Origin: Scedosporium boydii | Taxonomy: Eukaryota > Ascomycota > Sordariomycetes > Microascales > Microascaceae | Direction of reading: 5' to 3' | NCBI GenBank assembly: GCA_002221725.1 | Contig: NJFT01000020.1 | Span: 186,001 to 250,000, forward strand | Length of the DNA: 64,000 nucleotides | Shown here: piece by piece, positions 16,159 through 50,907 of the stretch | Layout of the letters: every line of letters begins with the position of its first letter | Numbering within the stretch: position 1 is the stretch's first letter | Position numbers and translations under genes: made by a program | The notes under the pieces: generated by a model | Databases searched by the model: none | What the model was told of the DNA's origin: nothing | Seen by the model: only the letters and a program-made list of their open reading frames with translations

Positions 16159-16169
16159 AATCTAAGCGC
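16159..16169 (+). promoter_or_regulatory. Cluster motif AATCTAAGCGC upstream of P450
   Basis: Exact copy of the recurrent motif, 232 bp before the first P450 ATG (16,401) and 280 bp before the second (16,449). Confidence 0.7.
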
Positions 16170-16400
16170 GAGCTCGCCGCTCTGTTGTCACTTGAGTCGG
16201 TTGTAGCCGCGGGGGATATACTATAGGATTATAAAGATAAAATTGCACGTTCATTCTGGGCTTCCGAAAGCTCATGCTCTTCGTATAAAGAATTTATCTC
16301 GCCATCAATCTCAGGAGATTTACGAAATACTGTCCTTCTATTGCGACTGTGCCCAACTAATAAAGGAAAAAAAAAATATCGGGGTATAATCAGGGTCAAA

Positions 16401-18424
16401 ATGATATCGTTAAAGTCCTGTGAAGGGCCGTGTTCTCCAACCCAGCTCATGGTCGAAAATTGGCCGCTGGCTCTTACTGCTCTTGTTACTCTCAGCACTC
16501 TCGGCTACGTCGTCTATCAACTCTATCTCTCTCCACTTTCCAGATTCCCAGGCCCCTTCTTAGCCAAGTTGACCGATTTCTGGAGGGCACACCTGGTCCT
16601 CTATGGCATGCAGCATGAGACATTGATGGAACTGCACCGAAAGCACGGCCCCGTGGTGAGAATCGGGCCAAGCGAATTGTGAGACGAACCCTCTCTATCT
16701 ACATCATGAAACACACAAAGCGGAACAAATATACTCATGACCTTGTATCAACAGGAGCGTTACCGATCCCGTCGCTTTCAAGGAGATATACAGGGTGTCC
16801 AAGCCGTTTTACAAATCAGCATACTATGACGCTTTCCACAATGGCCGTGAATTTGACATCTTTGCGGAACGCGACGAAAAGAAACACGGTCAAAATCGAA
16901 GGATATTCTCCAGACCCTATTCTTCCGCAGGGATCAAAGACTTTGAAGCCGACCTCGACGATGTGCTGATGAACTTTGTCAACACCCTCAAGAGTATGGA
17001 TGGGCAGGATGTCGACTTTGGAAAATATCTAGAGCTATTCGCTCTCGGTAAGCGGTATTATCAATTCTGACAAAAAAAAAGAAAAAAAAATCTTAACAGA
17101 GAATCAAATCATTTCAGATTTCATCACTCAGGCGAGCTTTTCGCGACATTTCAATTACGTCGGAAAAGGAACCGACAATGGCGTGTTCAAATCGATCCGA
17201 ACCCTGACAAAATTTGCCACATTCTTCGGCCAGGTGCCTTGGCTCTTCCATGCGACCAAGCCCATCACGGCATTCATGGGTCGTTTCTCCGCCCTTGACG
17301 AATCCTCACGAGTCATTGGCGGCCTGCTGGTAGCGGCCCTACAGGAACGGAATGCCAACTTGGAGAAGGCAGGGGGAAATGGCGAAAATCAACCCGACAT
17401 TTACGGAAAACTTTTCCAAGCGCGAAAGTTGAGCTCTGTCCCAACCGACGAGCAGATCTTGCAGGGCATGGGAGCCAACATCGTCGCCGGAGTGGGCGAT
17501 GTCTCCATCTTCCTTAATGCTCTATTCTATTATCTCGTCTGTAACCCTGACAAGCTAGAAAAGCTCGTGGAGGAATTGAGGCAGAGGAAGGTTGCAGGCC
17601 TTTTAAGCGATGTCGTTCGATCTGAAGAGGCAAATGCGTGCCCCTACTTGCAAGCAGTCATCTACGAGACTTTGCGGCTTCACTCTCCCGCTCCAGGCCT
17701 ACTGCAACGGACCGTCCCTAAAGGTGGTATGCTAATCAAGGGCCAACACATACCGGAAGGAGTGAGTTTTACAGCGGCGGCTGATTGAATTTCTCTCTAC
17801 GAACATTTTGAACAATTCACTTAACCCTCATCTCATGTCTAGGTTACTGTGGGCACGGCAGCGTGGACCATCCACCGCGAACCTGGGATCTGGGGGAGTG
17901 ATCCGGATGAGTACCGTCCCGAAAGATGGCTGGATGAAGAGAGGAAAACCGAGATGCGTAAGTCCACCATGCACGCGAAGAAGAACGGCGCTCCGAGAAG
18001 TTTAGCTAATGTCTGGCGTAGACAAGTATTTCTTTGCATTCGGTGGTGGCACAAGGACATGTATTGGCCGAAGTAGGTCCCCGTAAGCGTTGTATACAAT
18101 AGCGGTTGCTGACACTGATCTTGCAGACTTCAGCTGGATGGAAGCGAACAAGGTAGGGTTCTCTCTTCCTGCGTTTTTAGCAGGGCAGGCATTGTCGCGT
18201 CGTGAAGATATATACTGACACTAGCACTCACTAGCTTCTGCCTACTCTACTTTTACATCTTGATCTTAAGCGGTCGGAGAAGGTCCCTGACTGGACCGTT
18301 ACGTGCAAGTAAGTCGTCCATGAATGTCGCCGGGCCGGAGGTATCCAGGGCGCTGACGACAGACAACAGGGGCTCTGTCCACCAAGATGACCTGTTCATC
18401 AAAGTTGTTGCACGAGAGTTATGA
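16401..18424 (+). CDS. Cytochrome P450 monooxygenase with non-canonical I-helix
   Basis: Microsomal fungal P450. Eight exons: 16,401-16,678, 16,755-17,047, 17,118-17,761, 17,843-17,957, 18,022-18,072, 18,127-18,152, 18,235-18,308 and 18,370-18,424. All junctions are GT-AG and in frame, giving 511 aa; a second in-frame ATG at 16,449 would give 495 aa. An N-terminal membrane anchor (WPLALTALVTLSTLGYVVY) is followed by the proline-rich FPGPF hinge. The K-helix ExxR is ETLR, the PERW motif is YRPERWL, and the heme loop is FAFGGGTRTCIGR with the ligand Cys at residue 457 of the long form. The I-helix reads AGVGDVS where relatives in the pisatin-demethylase-like group have AGSDTT, so the usual acid-threonine pair is not in place. 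It probably oxidises a cluster intermediate; the substrate is unknown. The last two small exons are the least certain. Confidence 0.87.
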
Positions 18425-19451
18425 ACAAAGGAAAACTGCGGGTATCTTAGGCACAGGTAGAGTTTCTATTTCTGCCCACCGGTACTGGCTGGTTAGGGAA
18501 AGTTGGGCTAGTAAGGGCTGGGACACATTAGGCTCCCACTTCAACTAGCGACATACCTCCCCCTTTGAGGACTTGGAGATAAAGGAGGAAACACACATGT
18601 AGCGATCGTGAAGTAACATGCTACTTCAGGGATGCAATGGAAGTACAGGGAGTGCGTGGAGAGACACCAGGTACTAGGTAAGAAAAATACCAACGAAAGC
18701 CTCTGGAGCTATTTCAATAGCCTATGTTTTATTTTATTTTATTTTATTTTATTTTATTTTATTTTATTTTATTTTATTTTATTTTATTTTATTTTATTTT
18801 TATGTTTATAAATGATGAATGAGAAATAAAACAAAAGTGGCCTGGCTATCTGCAATCAAGGCAGGCACGCTTATGGGGTTGTGATAAGAGTGCTCCCCGG
18901 TATCAAGATTGATAAGCACGGAGAACAAGACTGGAGGTGAAGCGTAGTATATCGGACAGATGTAGGGCAGTAGGGCGGCTGTGCGCTAAGATTTGGCTCC
19001 GGTAGCAGTCTGGGGAAATCCTCCATGTCTTGGCCCTAGAGATAATACGTTTCTAGAGGATCGAGCGCTAGGAGCCGAGGCTTTCCTATGCTAATACTCT
19101 CTTATCCCTAGTCGCCCAACCCCGCACCATTCCCCTTGTTTAAAACGGTGTCCGCGGGCGCCGAGATCCATTTCGGAATGGTGAGATTGGGACCGGTCGG
19201 TTGGTACTGGCCTGCCCCTCTTTCTATCAACTGATGCAACACAACAACACACGCACAGCACACGCATTATTAGTTTACAAAGCCGACCGGTTGGACCGGA
19301 CCTATACATTCCTTGCCTACTCCGTGCTCGGGTGAGCGAGCGCAAAAGCATTAGAAATCACCCTTTCGGCTGGCATCATCATCGTAGCTGCTGCACTCGT
19401 GGACAATGGCGGGCCTTTCGCGAACGCCGTCCATAGTACCGACTAGATGTC
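18425..19451. other. Intergenic region between P450 and amine oxidase
   Basis: No gene seen. It contains a long TTTTA microsatellite (18,727-18,801) and a near-match of the cluster motif on the - strand at 18,983-18,993 (AATCTTAGCGC). An 86-codon open frame on the - strand (19,091-19,351) has no recognisable features. Confidence 0.6.
18727..18801. repeat. (TTTTA)n microsatellite
   Basis: About 15 uninterrupted copies of the pentamer TTTTA, just 3' of the P450 gene. Confidence 0.98.
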
Positions 19452-19481
19452 ATCTAGGCGCCGGCTTTATCTAGGCGCCGG
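19452..19481 (+). promoter_or_regulatory. Paired motif variant ATCTAGGCGCCGG upstream of amine oxidase
   Basis: Two copies of ATCTAGGCGCCGG at 19,452-19,464 and 19,469-19,481, spaced 17 bp start to start. Each differs from the cluster motif ATCTAAGCGC by one A-to-G change. They lie about 280 and 264 bp before the ATG chosen for the amine oxidase fusion, the same distance range as elsewhere in the cluster. Confidence 0.55.
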
Positions 19482-19732
19482 GGAATGAGGGGTTTCCTAA
19501 CATGGCCCAAATGCACACGTAGATTTGTCCGCTCTGTTCACTTTCGATTATAAAGATGGCCCTGCTCGGTATCCCCCACGGCTGCTACCATTACGCAATG
19601 CTTTATTGGTATACAGTCTCGTCTCAGTGGAAACGAAAACAGCCACACAAACCACTCCACCGCCTCATCCTCGCTTTTCTACCCACCGATTCAGGGACGC
19701 TCAAGTCCGTTAGCTTTAACAAGTTGTTTCCA

Positions 19733-21688
19733 ATGGCGTGGTATGCCAAAGAGCGCGAAACCGCTGCCCGAAATGTCAGCTACATCTCCCGACCGACCGG
19801 AGCACCTACACCGCTAGGTTATTCTCATGTCACCATCTCCGAACCCGGATTGCAGTGGGTTGAGATCTCGGGGCAGGTAGGCAAGCTAGAAGACGATACC
19901 ATCTTGGGGAGCTACAAAGAGCAAGTCTTCCAGGCCTGCAAAAACCTCAAGATCTCCATGGACGCCGCACATGTCCGTGCCTGTGACCTCCTGAAAATAC
20001 GCTTCTATTCTGTCGGTTTTGATGCGGAGAAAATGGAGGTCTTGAAGCAAGCCATGGGCCAAGTAATCTCTCCCGAGTATCTGTCGAACCTTCCAGGCTC
20101 CTTGCTCGTCTGCGTGCCTTCGCTGGCGGACCCGAGGTATCACTTCGAGATGGAGGCTACAGCCGTTAGGCGACCCAACCCGGCAATGAATTCTCTCCCT
20201 CCGACTGTCCCAGACGTCATGGATACCGATGTCGTCGTCGTTGGAGCGGGCTTAAGTGGTTTGCAGGCGGCAGTTGATCTTCAGGCGGCGGGTTTCAGAG
20301 TACTTGTCGTGGAGGCGACTGATCGCGTGGGCGGGAGGACCTTTTCCGTCGAATCGTCCCCGGGTGGCTCAGGAAAAGTAGATCTCGGCGGTGCATGGAT
20401 CAATGACACTTACCAGAGCCGAATATGGGCGCTGGCCAAAAAATACAACATAGACACGGAGAAACAGTCGACCGAGGGCCATAACCTCAGGGTCAACGCA
20501 GATGGAAGTGTCGATGTTTACCCGTTTGACCAACTCACGGTGCGTATTCCTTTGTATTAGTTTCTCCCCCATCTGTTTCTCTCGCTTTCTGACAGACGCG
20601 ACACACTTTAGCTGGATCCGACTGTCGATAAAGAACACATCATCCCCTTCCTCAAGGGCATTGATGAACTTGTCAAGCTCGTCAACCCCGAAAGCCCGGA
20701 GACGTCCCCGCTCGCGGCTGAGTACGATGGCATAACACTGGCCCAGTACGCAAAGCAGAGCTCTTCAAACCCTTCGGTGCACCAGACCGCTGCGTTGTTG
20801 TCACGAGCCATGCTCAGCGTCGAGCCTGAAGAAGTGAGCCTTCTGTGGTATCTGACGTATATTGCACGGCAGAGCACGTTGGCCCAAATGACCTCGGATG
20901 GTTATGACGGCGGACAATATCTGAGAGTCAAGGGAGGCACTATGCAGTTTTCTGAACGACTCGCCGACGAGCTTTACCCCAATACCGTTCTTCTAGCGAC
21001 TCCTGTCACACATATCGAGCAGCTGAGCCCCGGCACCGTACGCGTTTCGGCCGGTCTCTCCAAGACTATCTACTGCAAGAAGGTGGTCATCTCCGCTCCG
21101 ACCCCGGCTTACTCAAGAATTCGGTTCTCGCCGCCACTCCCCAAAGCTAAGAAGCTCATGAGCGAATCCACCACCCTTGGCCATACCAGCAAGGTCGTCC
21201 TTGTGTTCGAGAAACCATGGTGGCGCGATGGACCTAAGCCCCTTTCCGGTTCCCTGAGCTGCCCAGAGGGCCCCATCACCTTCTCGCGAGATACGTCTTT
21301 CCCCGACCAGAATCTGTGGGCCATCACCTGCTTCATAAACGGCGACCACGCCAGGAGGTGGTGTCCGCTTTCCAAGGCAAAGCGCCGGGACTTGATTCTA
21401 GCGCAGTTCAACAAAGCTATGGGCGCGGTTTTTGCTGACATTCCCGAACCGATTGCCATCCACGAAATGTCGTGGTCGGAGTACCAATGGTATCCCGGAG
21501 GGCCGTGCCCCGTGATGGGCCCTGGCCTCTTGACTTCCGATGTAGGCCAGTCCCTGTGTGCCCCGGTCGGCGACATTCACTTCGTAGGCACAGAGACCTC
21601 GTTGAAGAACCCGGGATATATGGACGGAGCACTGTACTCGGGGAGCCGCGGCGCAAATGAGATTAAGGCCGCCTTGGGAAAGAAATGA
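19733..21688 (+). CDS. RidA-like / flavin amine oxidase fusion protein
   Basis: Two-domain enzyme of 627 aa. Exons are 19,733-20,539 and 20,612-21,688 (phase-0 intron). Residues about 20-145 form a YjgF/YER057c/UK114 (RidA) fold domain. Residues about 165-620 are a monoamine-oxidase-type flavoprotein with the dinucleotide-binding DTDVVVVGAGLSG (GAGLSG at 171-176), a Glu at about 194, RVGGRTFS, and the C-terminal HFVGTETSLKNPGYMDGAL motif. The oxidase should convert an amine to an imine with H2O2 release. RidA proteins act on reactive enamines/imines, so the fusion suggests direct handling of the oxidase product. The usual RidA catalytic Arg (PAR-S) is replaced by PGS at 121-123. An upstream in-frame ATG (19,556) directly abuts a TATAAAG and would add 59 residues of no domain character, so I prefer 19,733. 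A covalent-flavin Cys is not evident. Confidence 0.9.
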
Positions 21689-23331
21689 AGTTCACACAAC
21701 ACACCAACACCAACGCGAGCAGCTACTGTGAAAAGTTTCCCGGGTACCAATTCCAGGGTACTGGTTCCTCAACTGTCTGAAGATGGGCATGAGCGTCTAC
21801 TTGGAGAGTAGTTTATTACTATAATTTTATTCCATGTACCCGCGTGTATCTATCTGCATTCCGACCGGGGAACGGTGAACTTTGCTCGTAGTTGTATGCG
21901 CACCTGGAGCCCAAGTCATCATCCGAATCATGAAACTCAACGACAGATAATCACTGCACTTAAAGTTTACATATCCCAGCCACGTTAACATTCTAAATAG
22001 CTCATGGACGGCCAATATCTGGGATTCTTGGGCTGACCCCCCTTTGTGAGGGCCAGGAAGCAAAGCCAGCCGCAATAAGTTGCCGAGGTAAATTTTCGGT
22101 AATAGTGGCAAACTGATTCGCTGAGAAAGCTACGCAAGGATCCGAAGTACCCCGTTCGCTATTACTGCTTCACGGATACATATGTAGAGGCCTAAGGCGG
22201 GGAACCGAATGGAAGCTGGGGAGTCCCCCGCACACCTCCCCCGCACACCTCCTCGCACACCCTCGCATCTTGCATTCGCTAGGACAACGAACCCAGTCTA
22301 CCTCGTACCCGTGCCACCTCTTAGGTAAGAGGGCGTGGCATAGGTACTCCGTAAAGCTAAACTATGATGCCAAGGTCAATCACCCACTACGAAAGACTGG
22401 CGAACCATCTATTAATTGCCTGCTGGCTCCGCATCTTCGATGTGGGAGGCCCTACTGTACCCCAACGATACGCATCTGCTGGCGGCTTCACTGGCGGACA
22501 TTGCCCCGCGAAGGAAGAGGATGAGATCAACCAACAAACACTGGCTTCTCTGCAAAGGCGACACTTGTTCGGCTCCACTTTCCCAAATTCAAATCCAGCC
22601 GCCCCACTATGAGTAATCGAGAAAACAAACTGTATTCTAGCGTACAACGCTCTTCTGTATTCTGATTGGCTAGAGTGATTTTGCGAAATTCATAATGTCC
22701 TTTTTCTATGTAATATATCAGCTTCTCTTAGGTTTCAATCAGAACTATGATCATTTAGCATCTTAAAACAGTTTAATATGATCAGAATATTGATTATTGT
22801 AAGAAGGGTAAGAACCAGCATTTTCCCTGTGTGATTTAGTTGTATTTTGAGCCTGATGCATTGTGTTTGTGCGAATGTACTGGCCTACTGTCAAAATCGA
22901 AATTAGAACAGCCAAGACAGCTTTTTAGCTGTTTCAATTTCAGCGCATGAGACTCTGGGAATGTCTGCAAAGCTCCACTTCCCCAGAATGTGTATGCACC
23001 ATCGTATTCTATATAATAATAAATATCCTGAGGGGTAAATCCCGAAACTCCCTTCGTCGGACGCCTTATAAGCCAGAGACTACGTAAGTAATATACAACG
23101 ATAAGAAAGCAACCCATGACTTACCAGCCACATTGAGGTTTTCGGTTTCCCGTCCTAGGCTACTCGTCCCTTGGGTATCGTATACTGCCTGAACATACGG
23201 CACGAGTAAACTGATGCCTTATGAGGGATATAATGGATGTAGCTTTCAAGAAGCAGCTCGATCTGCAGCTGGAAAAGTAAAGCTTGCGCTCGACAACGGC
23301 CGGTCTGTTTTATTCAACAAAAAACGCTTCG
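21689..23331. other. Intergenic region 3' of amine oxidase
   Basis: No supported gene in this 1.6-kb stretch. It holds a TACTCCGTA site (22,344-22,353) and small overlapping open frames at 22,270-22,650. A 93-codon - strand frame (22,836-23,117) begins with a hydrophobic run but matches nothing I recognise. Confidence 0.5.
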
Positions 23332-23545
23332 CTATTTGCACCCGGAGAACAACCCGGACGGTCTTATCGAATGACCCGTTTCCCATCGCATTCAAGGCTG
23401 GACATGGGCCCGTTTCTCAGGTCGTACAACGAAAATTATCTCGACTTTGTCTCAGAGTACTGCAATGCAATGGCTAGCCACTCACATCCGAAGATAACCA
23501 CAAGGATCCATGCCGTCACGGATAATAGCTTTGTGCTCAGCAGTC
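23332..23545 (+). pseudogene. Decayed fragment of a class III aminotransferase (paralogue of 48,732)
   Basis: Two adjacent frames together match residues about 70-140 of the intact aminotransferase of island 2. TRTVLSNDPFPIAFKAG (from 23,351) parallels TRAVLLYTPFPLVFSGG. After a frame change, YLDFVSEYCNAMASHSHP (23,430-23,490) parallels YLDFVSEYCAGMFGHSHP. Upstream, LFAPG in yet another frame fits VLPGG. At least two frameshifts are present, and no PLP-lysine region follows. The sequence is not RIP-mutated. It is a truncated, broken second copy of exon 1. Confidence 0.85.
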
Positions 23546-23812
23546 TGATGCTTTGCAAAGGGCGAGCTTGCCTAGCTCCTTATGGATTGATTTCGAAGTC
23601 GTAATACTGCGAGGCCTTGCGACTCTAGGACTGAACCTGTGCTTAGCTCGGGCAATGTAGGGTGATGGACTTGACTGATTAAGCTCCGCGATCGCGGCTC
23701 CCCCCGATCCGAGTCAACAGCTATGTACTCCGTACAAGGCCATATTCAGATGTCGTAATGGAAGCTCTGCCCTTGGCCCTTCTCGGCATCGAATGGGGAA
23801 TTGTACTTTATA

Positions 23813-24144: not shown

Positions 24145-24155
24145 GCGCTTAGATT
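24145..24155 (-). promoter_or_regulatory. Cluster motif AATCTAAGCGC (reverse strand)
   Basis: Exact copy read on the - strand, in the gap upstream of the Zn2Cys6 regulator. It is 1.18 kb from that ATG, or about 0.57 kb if the transposon at 24,402-25,012 is removed. Confidence 0.55.
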
Positions 24156-24401
24156 AGATAGTGGGCAGGTACCTCTTCTCTTGTATTGGTGGCCAAGTCG
24201 CTGACAAACCAAACGAGACACACAAACTTGATGAAGTACCTCTCCTAGAAAATCTCTCGCTGAGAGTGACATGGAACGAGCTGACTAAAAAGCCTCTTCC
24301 TCTTCGTTAACTGTCTCGTTGAATTTGTCACCTGACCCGGAGTTTACGTCGTCTCTTCGGTTGGTTTGCAAAAAATGCGGGGTAAAACCTTAATCGGCAT
24401 A

Positions 24402-25012
24402 AACCTCTCCCGGGGGTTTAAATGTTAGTACGAGAAATTGACGCCACTGCCCCACGCCACCCTTGTAAGTACTATATAAGTATTATCACTAGTATTTTAT
24501 ATGTAAGAATACTACTAGAATACAAATACTAAAAACAGTAATATTACACCCACTAACAATTTTTCTTCAGAAACTGATCGAACATCTTCGACATCACAAG
24601 ATTCCAGCAAGATAATGCAAGGGCCCATACAGCAAGAATAACCAAGTCAGCTTTGGAAGCTATGGAAGTTCCACTTCTTCCATGGCCAGCACATAGTCCT
24701 GACTTGAACCCTATTGAAAATGTTTGGTTTGTAATGAAGGATTGGGTGGAACGCGAATATGATATTCAGACATTAAATCAGGTGGAATTACGTGCTGCAA
24801 TCGAGGCTGCTTGGGAAGCTATTCCGGAAGACTTTCTTCTGAAATTAAGTCATTCCATGATTGAGCGGCTAACAAAAGTAATTGCTGCAAATGGGGAAAT
24901 AGTATAGATACCTCTAATATAGCTCTATCTAATATTGGAATCCATGTATATATACCCCTTCTGAAAGTGGTTAGTATGTAATGAACTAACATTTAAACCC
25001 CCGGGACAGGTT
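24402..25012 (+). mobile_element. Internally deleted Tc1/mariner element with intact ends
   Basis: A 611-bp element flanked by TA (24,400-24,401 and 25,013-25,014). The ends are AACCTCTCCCGGGGG... at the left and its inverse ...CCCCCGGGACAGGTT at the right; 22 bp at 24,408-24,429 are a perfect inverted match to 24,985-25,006. Inside, a frame from 24,578 to 24,907 encodes the C-terminal third of a DDE_3-type transposase, including FQQDNARAH (second catalytic Asp) and SPDLNPIENVW (third catalytic position). The N-terminal DNA-binding domain and the first Asp are gone and the frame is preceded by a stop at 24,575, so it is non-autonomous. It is little mutated compared with its relatives. Confidence 0.92.
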
Positions 25013-25332
25013 TACATAAGGATTATCTCGCCTCCCTCAGCTGCTTCGTATCGTGGCTCGAGCCCTCTCCTTATCCATATCTTGCCTCTATCTCGTCTAT
25101 CCATTATTAATGCCTTCTTATCTATCAAGAACGCTGTTAGGTACTTTCAACGGTAATCTCAATCTATAGAGGGGCATCCAGCATCTGCCAACTCTCAAGT
25201 ATTCCCCTCTACCATACGGCGTCACACCAATCTAGTCATTGCTTTTGGGGGGCTATTTGCTACGTCGTACTGCGCTCGCGGCTGGCTCGTTAATTTTACC
25301 GACGTCTCCTGGCCCCCTTTCTGTCAGTCGAC

Positions 25333-26943
25333 ATGATGTCAGCCGCTCCCCCCTCTCCAAGATGCGCGGAGCTCAAGCCGCGGCGGTCTCGTTGCAAAAC
25401 TGGGTGCCTGTGCTGCCGCCTTCGTCGCAAGAAGTGCGACGAGAAGAAGCCTAGATGCACTGCATGCCAAAATTTAGACCTGATCTGCTCCTGGCCGAAT
25501 TCGAACGAATTCGCCTGGCGAATCCGCATGGGTCTCTCTGCCCCCTCACAACCGACATCTCCAACCGGATCGTCGGCCACCCCACCATCGACTTCATCAT
25601 CTGCAAGCTCACCAGATGACGGAAAGGAGACAAGGCCACCCCCCTTGGCGCCATGCGCGCGTCAAACGGCTTTACCAGCATTGTCTCTGAACCTACGTCG
25701 ACCTTCGTTATCACCTTTGCCTCCATCATCTCAACAGTTGCTACAGCTCTACCTCGAACGGACATGTTCATTCTTGGCTGTAATTGGGCCTAGTACTACT
25801 AACCCCCTCATCTATACGGTCCTTCCCCGGGCTTTTAAGGACAGCCTCATCATGGATGCCGTTTTAGCTCTTGGGGGTTCCTTCGGGAATGCCTTGGATA
25901 CGGCCACTGAAGAAACCTCCCTGAAGTACTATGGTCACGCTATTCGGACCCTCAAGTCTGAGTTAACAGCCTCTTCAACTGGCTCGCTGCGAGAAGCGTT
26001 GCGGCTTCTGTTAGTAACTATGTTTCTTTGCTTCTCTGATGTAAGTAAGGGGGTATATCACTTGATAAATCAAGTCGAATTTTGACCGCTAACGTCGCCA
26101 TGATTTAAGATGTATAGGGGAAATCGGAATGGCGCCTCGTTCCACCATCTTCGGGCCAGCCGATATTTTGCCCCAGTCGTACAAGAGGCCCTGAAACAGC
26201 AAAATGAAGCAATTGAGCACGAAGATCGTCAACTAGGCCAGTTATTACTCGAAGTATACGCATACTGCGATCTATCTTCCGGCATACGTCTCCTTCCAGA
26301 TCCCGAGGATATGAAGGCTGTCTACCAGTCACAAGTGCTGCAGCTCGAAACTCTCAAGGAATTTGAGACTGCTGGTGCGAACTTCGGATGCACTTGGGAG
26401 CTGTATAGGCTGGTACCACGTATCTGCTGGCTCGTTAGACAGAGGAAGGAGGAACTAGCTCAAGGCGAAGACCTGGGCTGTTTGGCCGCCTACAACAACT
26501 TAAAACGCACCATAGATCTATGGCGCAGCTCTATCGAGGCTCCTGCTATCGCCATTAACCATTATCAAGATGGTTGTTTAGCAGCAGGGCTGCTAAGCTG
26601 TAGCGCTATCACGCTTTTCTTGCACACAGCCTATTATTGCGATGATCAGTCGCATTTACGCCGTGTTGCCCAGCCACTTGTCGATGAGGCTATTGAACTT
26701 GTCAGCATCTGTAACAGTACTCCATGGTCGCCATTTGGCTACTGGCCAACGGTCGTTATCGCGTCCTTCGCGACCACAGCGGCCCAGCGGGAGTCGTTAC
26801 AGAATTCGCTGTCTAACGACATGCACATAGTAAGACGTGCGAAGGAGCTTCTGAGCTGGACTTGGGATATTTCTGACGAGGTATATGGGCTGAATGGATT
26901 GGCGCAAGTAATCAAGCGACGAAACACGAGTTGGTGTTGTTAA
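25333..26943 (+). CDS. Zn2Cys6 fungal transcription factor (regulator 1)
   Basis: Nuclear DNA-binding regulator of 513 aa. Exons are 25,333-26,040 and 26,110-26,943, joined in phase 0. The N-terminus holds a canonical binuclear zinc cluster: Cys25, 28, 35, 42, 45 and 52 with spacing C-x2-C-x6-C-x6-C-x2-C-x6-C, inside RCKTGCLCCRLRRKKCDEKK. A Ser/Pro-rich linker follows (about 65-135), then a long helical region of the fungal_trans_2 type with FLCFSDMYRGNRNGASFHHL across the splice junction. A second ATG codon immediately follows the first. Such proteins often control the cluster they sit in and bind CGG half-sites; a CGG-N6-CCG palindrome lies at 29,775-29,786. The role as cluster activator is inferred. 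Confidence 0.9.
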
Positions 26944-27120: not shown

Positions 27121-29061
27121 TTAGTTTAACGCAGCACCCGAACCCGAAGCGGTTATCTGTAAACCGTTCAAGTCCCCCTTGGCCTCCCAGTCTTCCAGTT
27201 CCTTAGTATAATCAAGGATGCCATAGCACCAAGTCAGGCCCTTCCCAATCTTCAACTGATCCTCTTCTGTTTGCGCCTCCAACCTTGCTCCTTCTGCAGT
27301 AGCGTAACTAGGTGTGCATGCAGGTAGGGCAGCAAGCCCCAGTGCTCCTCCTGCGACCCTCAGAGCCCATTCTTTCTCACCCTCCTCGGTCGGCTCCAAG
27401 ACGAATTTCTCCCCCTTGGCCCGTTCTTGAGCCGTAGCAACTATATGAGCCGCGTGAGTCGCCATGACGTCCATGCTGTGAACGACATTGACAGTTCCTC
27501 CCGCCTGCGTTAGGCCAGACAGGATAAGGTTGGGGAACCCCTTCGTCAGAAGTCCATGGAGCGTATCGGGTCCTCGTTGCCATTTATCATCTAGGGAGAC
27601 ACCCTCGCGGCCGGTAACAGTAGTACGGGATCGGAATGCTGGGCTGCCTACCGTGAATGACTCGAAGCCGGTACCCCAGACGATCAGGTCAACGTCGTAT
27701 TCACGGCCGTTGAACAAGACTCCCTTACTGGAGAGCTGCTCAAGGCCTTTGCCATCCGTGTCAACCAGCTCAACGTTGGGTAAGTTAAACGCGTCGAGGT
27801 ACTCGTCGTGGAAGCATGGTCGCTTGCACCAGCCGGGGTACCAGGGCTGCAGGCTAGCAGCTGTCTTCTTGTCCTTGACTACCTCGTCAACTCGAGCACG
27901 GATTCGGTCCTGGCGAGGTAGGTCGAGGAGGTGTAGTGACGCGACATATGGTTCGACGTTCTCCATAGTGAGGGTCTTAACGCTAGGTCCGCCGACCAAG
28001 CCGGAAAACGACGGGAAGTGAGTCCAACCATCGTCAATCAAGTTCTCGGTAGTGTTGGGAACATTGCTCAGGCGGGCGGCCATGTTCTCACGTCGCCGGC
28101 GCTGCCAACCCGGCTTGCCACTTATCTGCTGTTCGAACTCCTTCGCATCGACGGGGCGTTGACCTCGGATGTCAACTGCCGACGGGGTTCGCTGGAAAAC
28201 GTAGAGGTGCTTGGCCCAGCGGGCAAGTTGAGGCACGACCTGTATGCCGGTAGCGCCCGTTCCGACGAAAGCGACCTTCTTGTCTTTGAGATTAAGCAGG
28301 GTAGGATCAGTAGGAGAACCACCGGTGTAGTCGTAGTCCCAGCGAGAGGTGTGGAACATGTGCCCCGAGAAGTCTGCAACGCCGGGCATGCGGGGCAACT
28401 TTGGTCGATTGAGGATACCGGAAGCCAAGATGTAAAAGTCGGAGCGAAGCTCAATGACCTGCTCAGGCCCAGTGGGAGGCTTGCGAAGGATGCGAGTAAC
28501 CCACTCGGAGGATTTCTCATCCCAGGTTGTCGACTGGACCATCGAACCAAACAAGGCTCGGTTTTGAAGCCCCCAACGAGCAGCGACAAGCTCTGCGTAT
28601 TCTCGCAACTCGGGGCCATAAGAGTAACGGTGTTTCGGGGTATAGCCAGTCTCCTCGAGGAGAGGCATGTAACTAGCACTCTCCACGTCGCACATTAGGC
28701 CGGGATAGCGATTCCAGTACCAGGTACCTCCCCATCCCCAGGCCGAATCAACGAAGATGAAGTCGGAGGCTTGGAAGCCGGCTTTTTCGATGAGCCGAAC
28801 AGCGAAGAGTAAAGAGCCGAATCCAGTACCTGTAACGACGACTTTGACGCGTGCTCCATTCTCGACAGGGGGTGGTTTGTTTACATAGGGATTCGTCGGG
28901 TCTCTGACCCACGGGTCCTCGGAAAAGTGCCTATATTTGTCGACTTCCTCGATGGGCACGAACTGGGCGATACCCTCGGGGCGCAGGCGCTTCTGACGCT
29001 CGCCCTCATACTTGGCCAGCACCTCGCGTAAACGAGATTCGTCGTTGGCGACGGAGCCCAT
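27121..29061 (-). CDS. Baeyer-Villiger-type FAD/NADPH monooxygenase
   Basis: Single-exon gene of 646 aa. The order of motifs is that of class B flavin monooxygenases: first Rossmann motif VVVTGTGFGS at about 74-83 (a Ser replaces the third Gly), GGTWYWNRYPG at 111-121, the Baeyer-Villiger fingerprint FSGHMFHTSRW at 231-241 (FxGxxxHxxxW), and the second Rossmann motif VGTGATG at 266-272. Such enzymes insert oxygen next to a ketone or oxidise N or S atoms; which applies here cannot be told. The N-terminal extension of about 70 residues is common in long fungal members. No signal peptide. It is transcribed divergently from the imine reductase across a 1.6-kb shared spacer and has an exact cluster motif about 280 bp upstream of its start. 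Confidence 0.93.
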   Translation of the reverse strand: MGSVANDESRLREVLAKYEGERQKRLRPEGIAQFVPIEEVDKYRHFSEDPWVRDPTNPYVNKPPPVENGARVKVVVTGTGFGSLLFAVRLIEKAGFQASDFIFVDSAWGWGGTWYWNRYPGLMCDVESASYMPLLEETGYTPKHRYSYGPELREYAELVAARWGLQNRALFGSMVQSTTWDEKSSEWVTRILRKPPTGPEQVIELRSDFYILASGILNRPKLPRMPGVADFSGHMFHTSRWDYDYTGGSPTDPTLLNLKDKKVAFVGTGATGIQVVPQLARWAKHLYVFQRTPSAVDIRGQRPVDAKEFEQQISGKPGWQRRRRENMAARLSNVPNTTENLIDDGWTHFPSFSGLVGGPSVKTLTMENVEPYVASLHLLDLPRQDRIRARVDEVVKDKKTAASLQPWYPGWCKRPCFHDEYLDAFNLPNVELVDTDGKGLEQLSSKGVLFNGREYDVDLIVWGTGFESFTVGSPAFRSRTTVTGREGVSLDDKWQRGPDTLHGLLTKGFPNLILSGLTQAGGTVNVVHSMDVMATHAAHIVATAQERAKGEKFVLEPTEEGEKEWALRVAGGALGLAALPACTPSYATAEGARLEAQTEEDQLKIGKGLTWCYGILDYTKELEDWEAKGDLNGLQITASGSGAALN

Positions 29062-29339: not shown

Positions 29340-29350
29340 AATCTAAGCGC
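29340..29350 (+). promoter_or_regulatory. Cluster motif AATCTAAGCGC upstream of BVMO
   Basis: Exact copy, 279 bp upstream of the BVMO start codon. It reads away from that gene. Confidence 0.7.
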
Positions 29351-29896: not shown

Positions 29897-29906
29897 ATCT
29901 AAGCGC
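29897..29906 (+). promoter_or_regulatory. Cluster motif ATCTAAGCGC in divergent spacer
   Basis: Exact 10-mer, preceded by G instead of A. It is about 790 bp upstream of the imine reductase and about 836 bp upstream of the BVMO. Confidence 0.6.
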
Positions 29907-29952
29907 TGACTCCAATATCTCGCCACGCCAGGCTTAGCAACAGAACCTAAGA

Positions 29953-30694: not shown

Positions 30695-31609
30695 ATGCCG
30701 GAATCCCAGCCCTCAGTCTCTGTTCTTGGCCTTGGCCTGATGGGAGCAGCGATCGCGTCCACGTACTTGGACAAGGGATGGAAAACCACAGTATGGAATC
30801 GATCTTCTGCTAAAGCGGCGCCGTTGGCCACCAAGGGTGCCATCGTGGCCGCATCGCCTGCTGACTGCGTCCAAGGGAGCGACTTGATCATCGTCTGTCT
30901 CCTTGATACCGCCGTCTACCATCAAGTATTGAAGGATTGCACGGCCCCTCCTGGCAAGGATCAGACGTTCGTCAACTTCACAACATGCGCACCTTCGGAT
31001 GCGGAATCATCTAAGAAGGCTGCTGCCGATGCTGGATTTTCAACTTATATCCAGGGTGTCATCATGACTATGCCTACCTATGTTGGACGTCCCGAGTCCG
31101 TCTTTTGGTACAGTGGGAACGAAACCGCGTTCAACGCCCAAAAGAAGGCCCTCGAAGTCCTCGGCACGCCCCTATTTATAAATAACGATGTGACATCTTC
31201 AGTCATCTATGACGCTATCCACCTCAACGGTTTCTACGGCCTCGTGTCCGGTTACCTTCACTCCATGACCCTCCTCCGCAACTCTAGGCTTTACGTCCCC
31301 GGTGCCGCTCAGCAGTTTACAAAGGATATCCTAGCCCCCAGCCTCGCACATGCAAACGAGCTACTTGCCGAGATTGCACGCCAGATCGACGAAAAGGACT
31401 ATCTCACCAAAGGTGATGGCGCAAGGTTGGGCCAGCATATCCACGCTCTCGATATATTCAGGCGAACCAATGAGGAGCATGGCGTCTCTTCCGTTTGTTT
31501 TGACCCTCTGCTCCAGTCTATAAAGGAGAGAATTTCCCAGGGTGGTGAGGACGAGGAGTTGGGCGCGCTTGTCGAGGTCCTAAGCACTCGGAAGCGGGCT
31601 GAGCCTTAG
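30695..31609 (+). CDS. Imine reductase / reductive aminase-like NADPH enzyme
   Basis: Single-exon, 304-aa member of the 6-phosphogluconate dehydrogenase-like NAD(P)-binding superfamily with the imine-reductase signature: VLGLGLMGAAIA (residues 10-21) and TVWNRSSAK (32-40), where NRS is the NADPH-preferring loop. From family knowledge, the fungal reductive aminase AspRedAm uses Asn93, Asp169 and Tyr177. Here Asn94 (in TFVNF), Asp173 (in IYDA) and Tyr181 fall in the matching contexts with the same Asp-Tyr spacing of eight. The C-terminal half is helical, as expected for the domain-swapped dimer. It would reduce an imine, or aminate a carbonyl reductively, with NADPH in the cytosol. It is divergent from the BVMO and close to the amine oxidase whose product is an imine. 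A beta-hydroxyacid dehydrogenase is less likely because that family's catalytic Lys region is not visible. Confidence 0.9.
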   Translation: MPESQPSVSVLGLGLMGAAIASTYLDKGWKTTVWNRSSAKAAPLATKGAIVAASPADCVQGSDLIIVCLLDTAVYHQVLKDCTAPPGKDQTFVNFTTCAPSDAESSKKAAADAGFSTYIQGVIMTMPTYVGRPESVFWYSGNETAFNAQKKALEVLGTPLFINNDVTSSVIYDAIHLNGFYGLVSGYLHSMTLLRNSRLYVPGAAQQFTKDILAPSLAHANELLAEIARQIDEKDYLTKGDGARLGQHIHALDIFRRTNEEHGVSSVCFDPLLQSIKERISQGGEDEELGALVEVLSTRKRAEP

Positions 31610-41500: not shown

Positions 41501-41505
41501 CTAGT

Positions 41506-42644: not shown

Positions 42645-42655
42645 AATCTAAGCGC
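42645..42655 (+). promoter_or_regulatory. Cluster motif AATCTAAGCGC upstream of permease 2
   Basis: Exact copy about 800 bp before the permease 2 ATG. Confidence 0.6.
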
Positions 42656-43071: not shown

Positions 43072-43082
43072 GCGCTTAGATT
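43072..43082 (-). promoter_or_regulatory. Cluster motif AATCTAAGCGC (reverse) upstream of permease 2
   Basis: Exact copy on the - strand, about 370 bp before the permease 2 ATG. Confidence 0.65.
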
Positions 43083-43453: not shown

Positions 43454-45092
43454 ATGGGTGAGAAGAGCCCGGATCCCACAAACGACTCTGCCGCAAGCCA
43501 GACAAATGGAGAAGTCGAAGTCCTCGAGACGCAGATCCTCGACGAGGGTCAACTGGACTCTGGACGACTCAACATTTGGAGCACCGTCGGTGTCCAGTAC
43601 TCCACGACGGCTTCGCCACTAGCTCTCGGTGCCTATCTCCAGCTTGTCCTAGGGGCTGGAGGCAGCCCCTACCTTTTCTGGGGAATCTTAGTTGCCATGT
43701 CTGCTCAATTTCTCACAGCCTTTAGCTTGGCTGAGCTCGCGGCTTCTTTCCCCCACGCATCAGGTATGAAACACCAATGAATCTCCCAACGTGAATAATC
43801 AGCAATCCATCTAACAAAACGGCTCCGCCATAGGAACGGTATACTGGGTTTTCGTGCTCGCGCCTCCCTCGACCGTACGATTCCTCAGCTACTTGAACGG
43901 CATGACAGTCTCTTTGGGATGGCTTTTTGCACTTGCCGGCACGGTCGTATACTCTGGGGAGTTCATAGCAAGCATGGGTGCCGCCGCGACTGGGTACCAT
44001 CCCGAACACTGGCACGTTTACCTCTTGGGCGTTGCGTCGCTCGTGGTTTCGGCTCTGCTGAACACCGTCTGGATCCGGGTACTCCCCGTGCTTACCAAGT
44101 TCATGGTTTTTTTCGTCAACATTGTCGCCATCTTTATCTTTGTTACCATCCTCGTCAAAACGCACCCCAAGGCCGCAGCCAAGACCGTGTTTGTGGACGT
44201 TGTCAACGAGACGGGGTGGTCGTCAGATGGTCTAGTCTTCCTCATCGCTCTGCTTCCAGGTGTCTCCCTTATCAGCTTATTTGACGGCGCTGCCCACTTG
44301 GCCGAAGAGCTCCCCCGACCCGACAAGCAAGTCCCCCAAGTCATGATCTTGACCAATCTACTCAATGCGTTCACGGTAATCGTCATGCTTCTTGCGCTCC
44401 TCTTCTGCCTGACGAAACCCGAGAACCTCTTGGAACCTCTCGCTGGGTTGCCCATCCTCCAGCTGTGCTGGGACGCCTGGCCGTCCGTCGGTTTCGTCAC
44501 GACAGTTGCCGTCTGCTATTCCATCGTTCAGATCCTGGCCTCCATGTGTATCCTCTTCGCAAGCAGCCGTCTTTTCTGGTCCTTTGCCAAGACGGGCGCT
44601 TTTCCCTTCTCCAAGTGGATGTCCCGAGTTGATGGAGAGTACAAAGTCCCCGCCAACGCGGTTTATGTCACTGCCTTGCTCGCCGCCCTCATCACCCTTC
44701 TCGTTCTCGGCTCGTCAACCGTCCTCAACGCTTTATTCGGATCCGCCGTCATTCTGATGGCCATAGCCTACTCGACACCGATTATTCTTCTGTTGATGAA
44801 GGGCAGATCTGTCCTTCCCGAGGGCAGAAGCCTTAACCTCGGGCGGCTTGGCACGGTGGTGAACATCGCGGCGCTGTGCTGGATCGCCCTCATCACAGTA
44901 TTCCTATCATTCCCAACATACATGCCGGTAACGAAGAACACCATGAATTGGGCCGCTCCGTTTGCGATTGGGTGTCTCGTTCTTGTATTCATCAACTGGT
45001 TCTTTTGCAGGAAGTCGTACCGCTTGCTTCATGGCCTCTACGTTGAAGGGCTACACGGGGCCGTGCCTGCGGGACTGGAAGCAGGGAAGTAA
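43454..45092 (+). CDS. APC-superfamily amino-acid/GABA permease (permease 2)
   Basis: 522-aa membrane transporter, paralogue of permease 1. Exons are 43,454-43,763 and 43,834-45,092, with a phase-1 intron after the same HASG/HTAG position as in permease 1. A hydrophilic N-terminus of about 45 residues is followed by 11-12 hydrophobic segments. Conserved blocks shared with permease 1 include GWSSDGLVFLIALLPGVSLI, AEELPRPDKQVP, NAFTVIVM, PENLLEPLAGLPILQLCWDA and the C-terminal RLLHGLYVEG. It probably carries an amino acid, amine or related metabolite across the plasma membrane. Two permeases in one cluster could split uptake and efflux, or one may be a duplicate drifting to a new substrate; the sequence does not decide. 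Confidence 0.9.
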
Positions 45093-46281: not shown

Positions 46282-47913
46282 CTAAAATTTATGAAGCTTA
46301 TGAAGCCTATGAAGCTTATGGCCTGCCTGGTGTAATCTTTCAAACACGCGTTCGGGATCATACTTGGCAGAGACCTCTTCCAAAAATTGTTTGTTCTTCT
46401 CCCCAAAACCAGCAATGACATCCTGCTCCTGGTTCGCATAATTCATGTATTTGAATGTGCGACTCTTTCCCTTCTGCTTCGTCAATGCCTCAATCGCAAG
46501 ACCCAAGCTCCTCAGAACTGCCATGAACTCCTTGTCGTCAGAATCGTCATTCCATACACCAGTCAACAAGATGAGGGTCATTGGCTCATCCGGGCCTTCG
46601 AGGCCGTAGACGTTGCCTGCGCCTTCGCGCGCGGCCTTGTTTCTCATGGCAGGAGTGATGTGATTTACATCGAACACAAAGTCAAAACGACCGACATATG
46701 GCTCTGTCATCTCAGACCAGAGCGTGTACGCAGATTTGAGCAGGTTGATATCATACTCCATAGATAGTGTCCAATACGCATTCCGCTTGCCCCTTGAGTC
46801 GGTGACTTCTGCCATTTCTGCAGCAAGGTCGCTGTAGTCGGCAAGTCGAAGGGTATTAGAAAGGCTGGGTATGCGGCGAAATGCGTCGTAAATGGGGGGA
46901 TCTGCTGTTGGCTCTGGGTAACCCAAGAACTGCGCAACTAGCACCGCGCCATCGCTTCGGAAGAAGTCCAGAATCATGTGGGCTTTGCTATCTTTGGTCA
47001 AGTCATGGGTGTACTTGTCGTAGGTGTCGAAGAAGGTGTCGAAGTGTTCCTCATGAATGACATTCATACCGCCCCACATACCGTTGTATGGGTGCAGCTT
47101 CAGTGTCAAGCTCGTGACGATACCAAAGTTATGGGCCCCACCTCCGTGAAGGGCTCTGTGGAGGTCAGGGTGAGAAGCGCTGTCGACGGTGACGAGTTCA
47201 CCGCTAGCTAATACTATATCAGCAGCCACTAGGCCATCGATTCCCCAGCCATATTGGGCGGAATAGTATGAAAGTCCACCTGTGGTATGGATAATTAACA
47301 ACTTATTTCAGATAATCCCAAATAATTTCAAATAATTTCCCATAACCATAAAGAGCGCCAAAACTTACCACCAAAAATAAAGCCGGGAATGCCAACACCG
47401 AAATCTCGTCCACCGACTGTTATCACACCATGTTTTTCAAGTTCCTTGAAGAGCGGGCCCCATTGAAGGCCAGGCCCTACTCTCACAGTCTTTTTGTCGT
47501 CTGCTATCTCAATGTGATTGAGGTTGACCAGGTCGAACTGGATGCCACCTTGGATGCTCGAGCCTTCTGAGTTGGAAGAGTGGCCACCCCCTTTGATGGC
47601 GAAGGGGCATTTCGCGCGCGCGACTTCGACAATGGCCGCCTTGACTTCGTCGGCGCTCGTAGGTTGGAAGAAGCAAGCTGGCGTCTTTCGTCTCTGGAGT
47701 GCATTCCAAAACGAATTCTGCGCGTCGGCGAACTTGGTGGACGAGGGCAAAATGACCCGACCGGGACAGAGTGTGGCAATCGCATCTCGCTGATGCCAGG
47801 TTAGAAGACAGCTGGCGGATGGAGTTGTGTGTGTGTGTGTGTGATAAAGAGATACTCACCGCAGCAAAGGCGCACGATGCGATCTCATCAGTTTTTTCAG
47901 GCGTTGAACCCAT
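46282..47913 (-). CDS. Berberine-bridge-enzyme-like FAD-linked oxidase
   Basis: 490-aa vanillyl-alcohol-oxidase-fold flavoprotein. Exons in transcript order: 47,913-47,860, 47,789-47,369 and 47,279-46,282, all GT-AG and in frame. The FAD-binding PCMH-type domain shows FAIKGGGHSSNSEG with the His (residue 88) that normally carries the 8-alpha-histidyl FAD link, and GIPGFIFGGGLSYYSAQYG across the second junction. The second covalent Cys of bicovalent members is absent. The C-terminal BBE domain has YMNYANQEQD-like and KYDPERVF motifs. Without a signal peptide it should be intracellular. Such enzymes oxidise amines or alcohols and can form C-C or C-N bonds in alkaloid pathways. The last 12 residues derive from a short ATGAAGCTT-type tandem repeat, an unusual tail. 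It shares an 0.8-kb divergent spacer with the aminotransferase. Confidence 0.92.
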
Positions 47914-48252
47914 ATTGCTAAGCCGGGCGGTTAATCGATTTGGACTTGGAGGAGCGCGTGTGTCTGCGCAAAATCCCGGAATTTCTCGAGAATGGACTAA
48001 GTAATCAGAGGGTTTTGTTTTCCTGATGAAAACAGGGGCAACAAGATCCAAACAAGTCGTGCCAAGCCGATTCTCGCTGATACAATTAATTCTAGACGGT
48101 GTCCGCGGACAACTTCCGTTCCCCCATGGCTTTTGGTGGGTGGCTGATTCGAAAACATCATTTCGCTTAGATTCTGCAATTCCATTAAGGCATTGTTCCC
48201 AAATCAGACTAGGGGTGAAATCTGTACGTTACATGTACTGCATATCATTCAT

Positions 48253-48262
48253 ATCTAAGCGC
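48253..48262 (+). promoter_or_regulatory. Cluster motif ATCTAAGCGC
   Basis: Exact 10-mer, about 340 bp upstream of the BBE-like oxidase start and 470 bp upstream of the aminotransferase start. Confidence 0.65.
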
Positions 48263-48435: not shown

Positions 48436-48445
48436 ATCTAAGCGC
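48436..48445 (+). promoter_or_regulatory. Cluster motif ATCTAAGCGC upstream of aminotransferase
   Basis: Exact 10-mer, 287 bp before the aminotransferase ATG. Confidence 0.7.
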
Positions 48446-48731
48446 TTCTATAGGAATGCACCCCGCGGGGGCGTTGGGGCATTCCCTTTACAGGATCAAC
48501 GAATCCAAACTTGGCTTTTCTTTATCTATTTCTCTAGCTTGTTCTTAGCTCCGATACTTGTTCCGGACCCGAGGCATGGGACCGTAATGGAACGCTCGGC
48601 CCGAGGAATTGGTGCTTATCGAAGCATCGCTCTACATCACAAAGTCGAGTCCTTTCCTTGCCTTTCTCTCAAGATATTATCTCTGCGGTGGTGACCACAC
48701 TTGGACTCTACAGACGGCATATTCGTGACGG

Positions 48732-50191
48732 ATGCTTTCTGCGTCGCTTAAGCGTATCCTTCGACTCACTTCACTTCAACGAAGAAGCCCTGGGCTCACA
48801 TCCGCAAACATGACCTCCATTCCAAGCGTCGAAGCATCCCAGCGGACACCGGTCCAGCAACTTCTCCAGCAGCAGGTTGACAAGTACGTCAAGGACAACC
48901 CGAAATCGGAAAAGGTAGTCCGCGAAGCTGCTCCTGTTCTCCCTGGCGGGACCACCCGAGCTGTTCTCCTCTACACGCCATTCCCTCTGGTCTTTTCCGG
49001 CGGCAAGGACACCTACCTCCGAACCGTCGATGGCGAAGATTACTTGGACTTCGTGTCCGAATATTGCGCGGGCATGTTCGGCCACTCGCACCCGGACATT
49101 GTAGCCGCTATCGACTCCGTGACCAAGCGTGGATTCACCCTGGGCGGCGCCACGGAAACCGAGGGTGAGATGGCGGCGGCTTTAACTAGCCGGTTCCCCA
49201 GCCTCGATGCCATCCGCTTCTGTAACTCGGGAACAGAGGCCAACACATTTGCCATCGCCACCGCGCTCGCCTATACGCAGAGAAAGAAGGTGAGCCGCGC
49301 CATTAACTATGGTTCAGTTGATGTTTTTATACAGCCCCTTTTTCAAAACTCACGAACCGGAATCTGACACCTCTGTGCGCAAACTAGGTCATGGTCTTTG
49401 AGAAGGCTTACCACGGCGGCACTTTGTCCTTCTCGTACACGAACCCAATGACGCTCCCGCATCAGTTCACGTACGGCATCTTCAACGACATCGAGCGCAC
49501 TCGCGCACGACTCGACCCAGAAGTAGGCGTCATCATTGTCGAGCCAATGCAATTTGCCGGTGGCTTGCAAGTGTCATCTAAAGAGTTTTTGCAATTCCTC
49601 CGCGACAAGGCCACAAGGATTGGTGCAGTCCTCATCTTTGACGAGGTTGTTACGTCTAGGCTGTGCTATGGAGGCATGCAGGAGCACTTCGGCATCACAC
49701 CCGATATGACGACCCTCGGCAAGCACTACGGTGGCGGATTCTCCTTTGGCGCTTTTGGTGGCCGCCGGGCCATCATGGATCTCTTCACGCCCGGCGCGCC
49801 GCGGAGCTTGTATCACTCGGGTACATGGAACAATAACCCCTTCACCATGTCGGCCGGCGTTGTCGCAACCAAACTCTTATCCAGGGAGGCCCTGGATAGG
49901 ACGAATAAGCTCGGCGATGCTCTACGAGAAGGCCTCCACGCCATCCTGGGTTCCGGAGACAGTGATGTAGCCGTATCGGTTGGATTTGGAAGCGTTGTCG
50001 GCCTGAAGTTCAAGGGACCCGAAGGAGACAATTGGAGGGATATATTCTACTTTTATATGCTCAACAACCACATATACATCGGACACAGGGGCTTCTTCGC
50101 GTTGAACATTACACATACTCAAGAGCACGTAGATCGCGTGCTCGAGGTTGCTAGGAACTTCTGTAGAGATACTGGGATAGCCTCCTATTAA
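48732..50191 (+). CDS. Class III PLP aminotransferase (glutamate-1-semialdehyde aminomutase-like)
   Basis: 453-aa fold-type I PLP enzyme. Exons are 48,732-49,289 and 49,388-50,191 (phase 0). Family motifs appear in order: VLPGGTTRAVL, a substrate-entry block YLDFVSEYCAGMFGHSHP, CNSGTEANTFAI (phosphate-binding GTEA), AYHGG, FDEVVTSR with the PLP-pyridine Asp (about residue 271), and TTLGKHYGGG with the Schiff-base Lys (about residue 298). It should transfer an amino group to an aldehyde or ketone, or act as an aminomutase. The N-terminal 26 residues are basic, Ser/Leu-rich and lack acidic residues, like a mitochondrial presequence; an alternative start at 48,810 would remove it. A broken paralogue is at 23,332-23,545 in island 1. 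Confidence 0.93.
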
Positions 50192-50907
50192 TGCCTACTT
50201 TTTTTTTTTTGTTGAACTTGGCTCGGACAGGATCTTTATGTGTGCATTATGCATGTGCTGAATGTGAAGCAACCTCCACTCGTTCCTACATGTAGTAAAC
50301 AATATAAAGGGGGTGTTCCCCAACCTCGCTTCCTGCAAAGTTAGGTTTCGAGGAAGTGTCGTTCTCCCAAGGATAGTACAAATGAAAATCAAGGTTTTAG
50401 AAAAAGAATAATGATAATAATAAATTATTTTGATTCTTATTCTTATTTTTTAATCTATTTTTTTCACTTATTATTTTTTCAAGTGTAGATGGCGTCCACG
50501 AGTTCGGTGGGAGATGGCCGGAAGGACCGGAATCGGGGATAGGGGAAAGGCTTTTGGGGGGGAGGTTAGGGGGGGGGATTCACGATCAAGTCCACTTAAG
50601 GGGAAGTAGGTGACATTTCTTATCAAATCTAAGCGCTTGGTCGCCCCATAGGGAAAATTCGCGACTCGTTGACCGACGATGTATTACGCGATGTACCCAG
50701 CCCCGGACCCCCGGACTACTCGGTGGCGACACTGTCGAGAACCTTCTCCGAGTTTTCACCAAAGCATCTTGACCCTTAAAATACCAGACGGGTTTATAAT
50801 AATTGGAAGACGGACCGGAACGGAACCAAGCTTCTTGGATTGTCTCCGTCCCTACACTTATTTCCCCATCTTCACAACTCCAAGTCGATCGAAACAAGAA
50901 ACCAACA
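50192..50907. promoter_or_regulatory. Region upstream of regulator 2
   Basis: 716 bp between the aminotransferase stop and regulator 2, with homopolymer-rich stretches (poly-T at 50,200, poly-G at 50,560-50,577) and an exact cluster motif at 50,626-50,636. No gene supported. Confidence 0.55.
50626..50636 (+). promoter_or_regulatory. Cluster motif AATCTAAGCGC upstream of regulator 2
   Basis: Exact copy, 271 bp before the regulator 2 ATG. If it is an activator site, this gene may be under cluster control or self-regulated. Confidence 0.65.

Follow-up and report, generated by a model that had tools for sequence, protein, structure and literature searches.

The stretch of DNA analysed here, 64,000 nucleotides of Scedosporium boydii contig NJFT01000020.1 (C20:186001-250000, from the 42.9-Mb assembly GCA_002221725.1; hereafter the window), encodes a putative amine/amino-acid pathway cluster whose intergenic regions repeatedly carry the 10-mer ATCTAAGCGC, a probable regulatory site. 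The cluster consists of GC islands (approximately 50% GC) within DNA of approximately 25% GC. From left to right, it encodes amino-acid permease A (13332..15016, +), a cytochrome P450 (16401..17788, +; modelled without its 3' end and with an uncertain start), a fusion of RidA (L-PSP) to a flavin amine oxidase (RidA-oxidase; 19556..21688, +; start at 19556 or 19733), the 512-aa Zn2Cys6 and Fungal_trans_2 regulator TF1 (25336..26943, +; modelled intron at 26041-26109), a BVMO-like flavin monooxygenase (27121..29061, -), an imine reductase/reductive aminase-like protein (30695..31609, +), amino-acid permease B (43454..45092, +; recognized by similarity to permease A and to the permease of a second cluster described below), the BBE/VAO-type FAD oxidase BBE2 (46282..47913, -), a class-III aminotransferase (AT; 48810..50191, +), whose closest solved relative is a beta-phenylalanine aminotransferase, and the Zn2Cys6-like regulator TF2 (50908..52043, +), with an imperfect zinc cluster in the splice model. 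The cluster extends to the left of the window, to approximately C20:180.2 kb, beyond the coordinates of an earlier annotation of this DNA (the sequence-only reading). There, at C20:180256-182412 and isolated in AT-rich DNA, a BBE-type oxidase (BBE1) is accompanied by two more exact copies of the motif. No backbone synthase was recognized in the cluster frames that were scanned.

The window contains nine exact copies of ATCTAAGCGC, as the sequence-only reading had claimed, with some of its positions off by one where the preceding base had been counted. The copies are located upstream of the P450 (16160..16169, +), TF1 (24145..24154, -) and BVMO (29341..29350, +) genes, in the divergent region between the BVMO and imine-reductase-like genes (29897..29906, +; 798 bp before the latter), upstream of permease B (42646..42655, + and 43072..43081, -), and upstream of BBE2 (48253..48262, +), AT (48436..48445, +) and TF2 (50627..50636, +). 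None falls in any modelled exon, in agreement with the earlier annotation. Dinucleotide shuffles of the window yielded 0.18 copies on average, a chance expectation higher than the 0.06 originally estimated, and nine copies were reached in none of 100 shuffles.

Across the genome, ATCTAAGCGC occurs 51 times, compared with 30 occurrences of the reversed pattern used as a composition control, and 17 of these 51 copies fall in two short regions. The first, C20:182077-236627, holds 11 exact copies, including two beyond the left edge of the window; the second, on another contig, C140:53548-74173, holds six. The remaining 34 copies are dispersed over 34 places, near the level of the reversed control. 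The sequence-only reading would have been undermined by a motif equally frequent before unrelated genes, and the comparison of these 34 copies with the 30 of the control speaks against that possibility. With the scattered copies taken as the background rate, the Poisson log10 P was -22.6 for 11 copies in 54.6 kb and -13.6 for six copies in 20.6 kb, or, once multiplied by how many windows of that size the genome contains, -19.7 (C20) and -10.3 (C140). In 57.3 kb of DNA from the clusters, ATCTAAGCGC had the lowest Poisson P of all 10-mers occurring at least five times (17 copies against 0.1 expected), with homopolymer and ATTTT-type repeats ranking behind it. No exact copy was present in the 58.9 kb flanking the two clusters, and none of the 34 background loci (3 kb each) contained relatives of the cluster reading frames at an E value of 1e-5. 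These findings show an over-representation in cluster promoters relative to the genome, as is characteristic of a pathway-specific cis-element.

The C140 cluster came to light through the motif alone. Six-frame comparison of reading frames revealed that C140:51122-75500 is paralogous to much of the C20 cluster in rearranged form, encoding counterparts of the permease, TF1, both BBE-type oxidases, BVMO, AT and TF2, with protein identities in long stretches from approximately 46% (BBE1) to 84% (aminotransferase). This stretch is of uniform GC content (49-56% throughout the fetched sequence), and gene order differs between the clusters, BBE2 and AT being divergent neighbours in C20 and approximately 10 kb apart in C140. 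Specific to C140 are a second class-III aminotransferase, which we read as a candidate of the ornithine-aminotransferase type, a TAP-like hydrolase, and a likely third regulator whose Zn_clus score (14 bits) is below the cut-off. No counterparts of the hydrolase or of this regulator were found in C20:156-270 kb. The P450, RidA-oxidase, imine reductase and second permease are specific to C20. Solitary relatives of the aminotransferase (54%) and BVMO (49%) were located on contigs C119 and C27, respectively.

A tolerated form of the site, ATCTWRGCGC, usually preceded by a purine, accounts for 23 sites in the two clusters (17 exact and six variant). All the variants listed in the sequence-only reading were found: ATCTTAGCGC between the P450 and RidA-oxidase genes (18983..18992, -) and 3' of TF2, outside any gene assignment (52875..52884, +); ATCTAGGCGC as a pair upstream of the RidA-oxidase (19452..19461 and 19469..19478, both +), the same variant occupying the BVMO position in the C140 cluster; and ATCTAAGCGA in the BBE2/AT divergent promoter (48163..48172, -), an extra site in C20 without a C140 partner. 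One-mismatch forms of the motif numbered 11 in 57.6 kb of cluster DNA and none in the flanks. Stop-to-stop frames of at least 150 aa contained three of the 23 cluster sites, compared with 14 of the 34 background copies; the three long frames overlapping cluster sites were taken as spurious.

When a site in a divergent region is credited to both genes, ATCTWRGCGC is present in the 5' intergenic region of 10 of the 11 modelled C20 genes (all but permease A) and of eight of the 10 modelled C140 genes (the hydrolase and the likely third regulator lack it). The element is thus found before most cluster genes and is absent from their neighbours in the flanks examined. It was likewise absent from the 20 kb fetched around each of the solitary C119 and C27 paralogs.

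Six pairs of paralogous promoters were searched for shared same-strand words of at least 10 bases, over the 900 bp preceding each start codon or, for TF1, over 1250 bp. Start codons were set by agreement between paralogs, those of the P450, RidA-oxidase and BBE1 being uncertain. The motif was the only word shared by the TF1 promoters (-1191 in C20, -380 in C140) and by the BBE2 promoters (-349 and -344). In the permease pair it was part of the longest shared word, the 16-bp block TTATCAATCTAAGCGC, and was located at -808 (C20) and -723 (C140). The BVMO promoters shared four unrelated words, and the exact motif at -289 in C20 was matched by the variant ATCTAGGCGC at -246 in C140, in the same orientation. 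The AT (-374 and -362) and TF2 (-281 and -270) pairs also retained the site. Altogether, six of the seven pairs of paralogous promoters conserved both site and orientation (for BVMO, through a one-base variant), which exceeds the background conservation of these promoters, the exception being the orientation in the BBE1 pair. No motif was found on the permease A side when this promoter was compared with those of the C140 permease and permease B.

The sequence-only reading had proposed a cluster-wide regulatory element at a fixed distance of 270-290 bp from start codons. Its regulatory part is strongly supported by the cluster-restricted enrichment, and its spacing part did not hold. The proposed distance applies to BVMO (289 bp) and TF2 (281 bp); for the aminotransferase it requires an upstream ATG (48732), whereas 48810, the one conserved between paralogs, gives 374 bp. 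The P450 site lies 241 or 289 bp from candidate ATGs at 16401 and 16449. The variant pair, which that reading placed approximately 265-280 bp before the amine oxidase, is 264 bp from the later ATG of that gene and only approximately 90 bp from the first. Over all genes, the distance to the nearest site ranges from approximately 90 bp (amine oxidase, first ATG) to approximately 1190 bp (TF1). A fixed distance across genes was consequently rejected, near-equal distances (within 12 bp) being confined to the AT, TF2 and BBE2 paralogous pairs.

The proteins that could read this element include two encoded in both clusters. Searches with the second exon detected two genomic copies of TF1 and two of TF2, in each case one per motif cluster, and regulator 1 or 2 is a plausible binder of the motif for this reason. 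The zinc cluster of this regulator class is defined by six cysteines in the pattern C-x2-C-x6-C...C-x2-C-x6-C. Both copies of TF1 scored above the cut-off for PF00172 (Zn_clus) and PF11951, that is, a standard Zn2Cys6 domain together with Fungal_trans_2. For TF2, the Zn_clus score was 25.5 bits in the C140 copy and 19.2 bits in the window copy (cut-off, 21), and the second half of its zinc cluster lacks C-x2-C in the splice model.

We therefore consider ATCTAAGCGC to be, with a probability of roughly three in four, the DNA-binding site of a pathway-specific transcription factor encoded in the clusters, the candidates being TF1 and TF2, the latter a degenerate Zn2Cys6-like protein. According to this model, the one to three copies that an intergenic region carries, oriented either way, would be bound by the protein and coordinate the genes of the amine/amino-acid pathway cluster, presumably by activation rather than repression. 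Both regulator genes are among the putative targets, which would imply autoregulation. The cluster has been duplicated in the genome, the copies then diverging and rearranging while most genes kept the site, so that both clusters would probably answer to the same recognition code.

Several observations weigh against this interpretation or narrow it. Zn2Cys6 factors usually read CGG-type triplets, often paired at fixed spacing. The motif contains no CGG triplet and no dyad, which is unusual for such a factor; the flanks of the 17 exact copies are near-random (at most 0.52 bits at each of 20 positions), with no fixed second half-site; and CGG or CCG appears at any single offset in no more than three of the 17 copies. 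The element thus departs from a canonical Zn2Cys6 site both in the motif itself and in having no preferred flanking triplet. A CGG-free motif with near-random flanks suggests that the factor either binds an unusual site as a monomer or is not a zinc-cluster protein. Conservation was measured between paralogs of a single genome, and the AT and TF2 promoters conserve much other sequence as well, so that the weight of the footprints rests on the remaining four pairs. The BBE1 pair has two sense sites in C20 and two antisense sites in C140, with no shared 10-base word; those in C140 may belong to the divergent aminotransferase gene. Sites without a partner occur at -382 before permease B (43072..43081) and at -845 before BVMO in C20, and at -591 before BVMO in C140, while permease A has no site within two mismatches in 1.3 kb upstream. 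Nor are the variants confined to the clusters. ATCTTAGCGC, present twice in the C20 cluster, is not enriched genome-wide (42 copies against 45 for the control). ATCTWGGCGC occurs 187 times against 83 for the control; among the 100 matches listed, 28 are ATCTAGGCGC, only two of which lie in the C20 cluster, and 72 are ATCTTGGCGC, whose occurrences we would guess to be largely coding. Finally, the C119 aminotransferase stretch carries the shorter ATCTAAGC twice, along with one ATCTNNGCGC.

The missing CGG triplet is compatible with binding by a regulator encoded outside the clusters, such as a basic-region or general factor, perhaps together with the GATA factor AreA, with TF1 and TF2 acting elsewhere. 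In this respect, TTATC, as in a GATA-type site, abuts the motif in four of the 17 cluster copies (two promoter pairs) and in none of the 34 background copies, and HGATAR lies within 40 bp of nine of the 17 cluster copies (permutation mean 4.9, P 0.03) compared with five of the 34 in the background. This association hints weakly at nitrogen control, but it is post hoc, and a composite AreA site was rejected as weak. Moreover, the site of a general factor should be common elsewhere, whereas copies outside the clusters stay near the reversed control, and we regard an external regulator as unlikely. An element acting at the RNA level in 5' leaders, on translation, stability or splicing, could also be envisaged, as the copies precede genes and several are no more than approximately 300 bp from the ATG. 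Orientation is, however, mixed across genes (antisense for BBE2, TF1 and BVMO; sense for AT, TF2 and the permease) and mostly kept within pairs, whereas an RNA element would be expected on the strand of the transcript; this argues for a DNA-level element and renders the RNA-level alternative highly improbable.

The other conserved blocks in the TF2 and AT promoters would fit a functionless motif persisting in the duplicated clusters merely for lack of divergence. Nevertheless, the TF1, BBE2 and permease promoters share at most three other words of 10 to 13 bases over 900-1250 bp, and the BVMO promoters four; the corresponding TF1, BBE2, permease and BVMO proteins are approximately 56-79% identical in long stretches; and sites also precede genes found only in C20 (P450, RidA-oxidase and imine reductase) and occupy non-matching positions. 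Such passive persistence appears even less credible than an RNA element. AT-rich repeats and remnants of transposons abound here, which would fit a motif that is a piece of a dispersed repeat or a chance word chosen after the fact; yet the low information content of the pooled flanks led us to reject a repeat or transposon origin, the motif ranked first in an unbiased count of 10-mers, and the discovery of the second cluster with the motif alone constituted an independent test. Among the explanations considered, we give this one the least credence.

The binding site proposed here for a cluster-encoded factor can be placed among known fungal cluster motifs. The tox-box, ATCTCNCGNA, is the site bound by ToxE in the HC-toxin cluster; as described in PMC4109984, it resembles the present element in being a 10-bp site that begins with ATCT in the promoters of one fungal cluster, and in functioning whichever way it faces and, in divergent promoters, as a single copy. 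The present motif diverges from it after ATCT, the tox-box itself is not enriched (one in 57.6 kb of clusters against three in 58.9 kb of flanks), and Pfam scans of the cluster frames showed no ankyrin domain. The Api-box, TGACGTGA, of the apicidin F cluster, associated with Apf2, was likewise found through homologous cluster promoters and enrichment relative to the genome, and was then supported by promoter mutation, according to PMC4109984. It differs in sequence and in having been compared between species, whereas ours was compared between two clusters of one genome; four Api-boxes lie in the clusters and four in the flanks. The KojR site of the kojic acid cluster, CGRCTWAGYCG, belongs to a Zn2Cys6 regulator, is cluster-specific, lies within approximately 0.3 kb of the ATG and has the core CTWAG in common with the exact and ATCTTAGCGC forms, but it is an 11-bp palindrome with CG ends (PMC9961346), unlike the dyad-free site described here. 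It was absent from the clusters and the flanks examined.

The CGG-N1-12-CCG pattern numbered 179 in the clusters and 168 in the flanks. None of the tox-box, Api-box, KojR, AflR or paired-CGG patterns was clearly enriched in the clusters relative to the flanks, and all were rejected as the identity of the element. Among the papers listed as containing one of six spellings of ATCTAAGCGC, none dealt with a fungal cluster, judging by title and the start of the abstract. By analogy, the motif would act like the tox-box, Api-box and KojR sites while matching none of them in sequence, which would make it a new sequence of an already known, pathway-specific type. The CASSIS approach reportedly uses cluster-wide promoter motifs as evidence of co-regulation to delimit fungal clusters; in our case, the motif alone additionally led to a second, unlinked cluster.

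Other features of the locus were recorded alongside these results. A palindrome-like sequence, TACTCCGTA/TACGGAGTA, was seen in the C20 islands at window positions 15722, 22345, 23726, 29773, 29780, 30261 and 32401. In total, the C20 islands hold it at eight places; of its three places on C140, two fall outside the cluster, and TACGGAGTA/TACTCCGTA was therefore discarded as a cluster motif. A 615-bp DNA transposon (24400..25014, strand undefined), bounded by 30-bp terminal inverted repeats and containing a DDE_3 fragment, separates the TF1 site from the start of TF1 in C20. A fragment at 23281-23604 resembles the cluster aminotransferase (43% over 56 aa); the full gene was not seen there, and the fragment is likely a relic. 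An AT-rich repeat, 88% identical between 12414-12713 and 41998-42297, lies upstream of both permease genes, which suggests that the permease and the edge of an island were duplicated together. The closest named relative of BVMO comes from Microascus stellatus (under the name Thermomyces stellatus), with 72% identity over 91%. For each of the entries P0003, a BVMO relative, and P0123, a TF1 relative, the longest contig given is 53,609 bases, and the two possibly derive from one homologous metagenome cluster.

On a more tentative level, and less likely than not, the two unlinked clusters may form a single regulon in which TF2, as a diverged zinc-cluster factor, reads one invariant, asymmetric 10-bp site free of CGG and without a paired half-site, and in which the factor copies would cross-regulate both clusters and the C20 cluster, although embedded in AT-rich, transposon-invaded DNA, would stay wired because nearly every gene kept its site. 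The motif provides a handle, obtained from sequence alone, that extended the cluster past the window and revealed its second copy. Through it, pathway genes (those for the P450, RidA-oxidase, imine reductase and second class-III aminotransferase) can be assigned to what is likely a single regulon, and its 17 exact and six variant sites constitute a panel for identifying which of the two regulators binds them and whether the duplicated clusters are still cross-wired.

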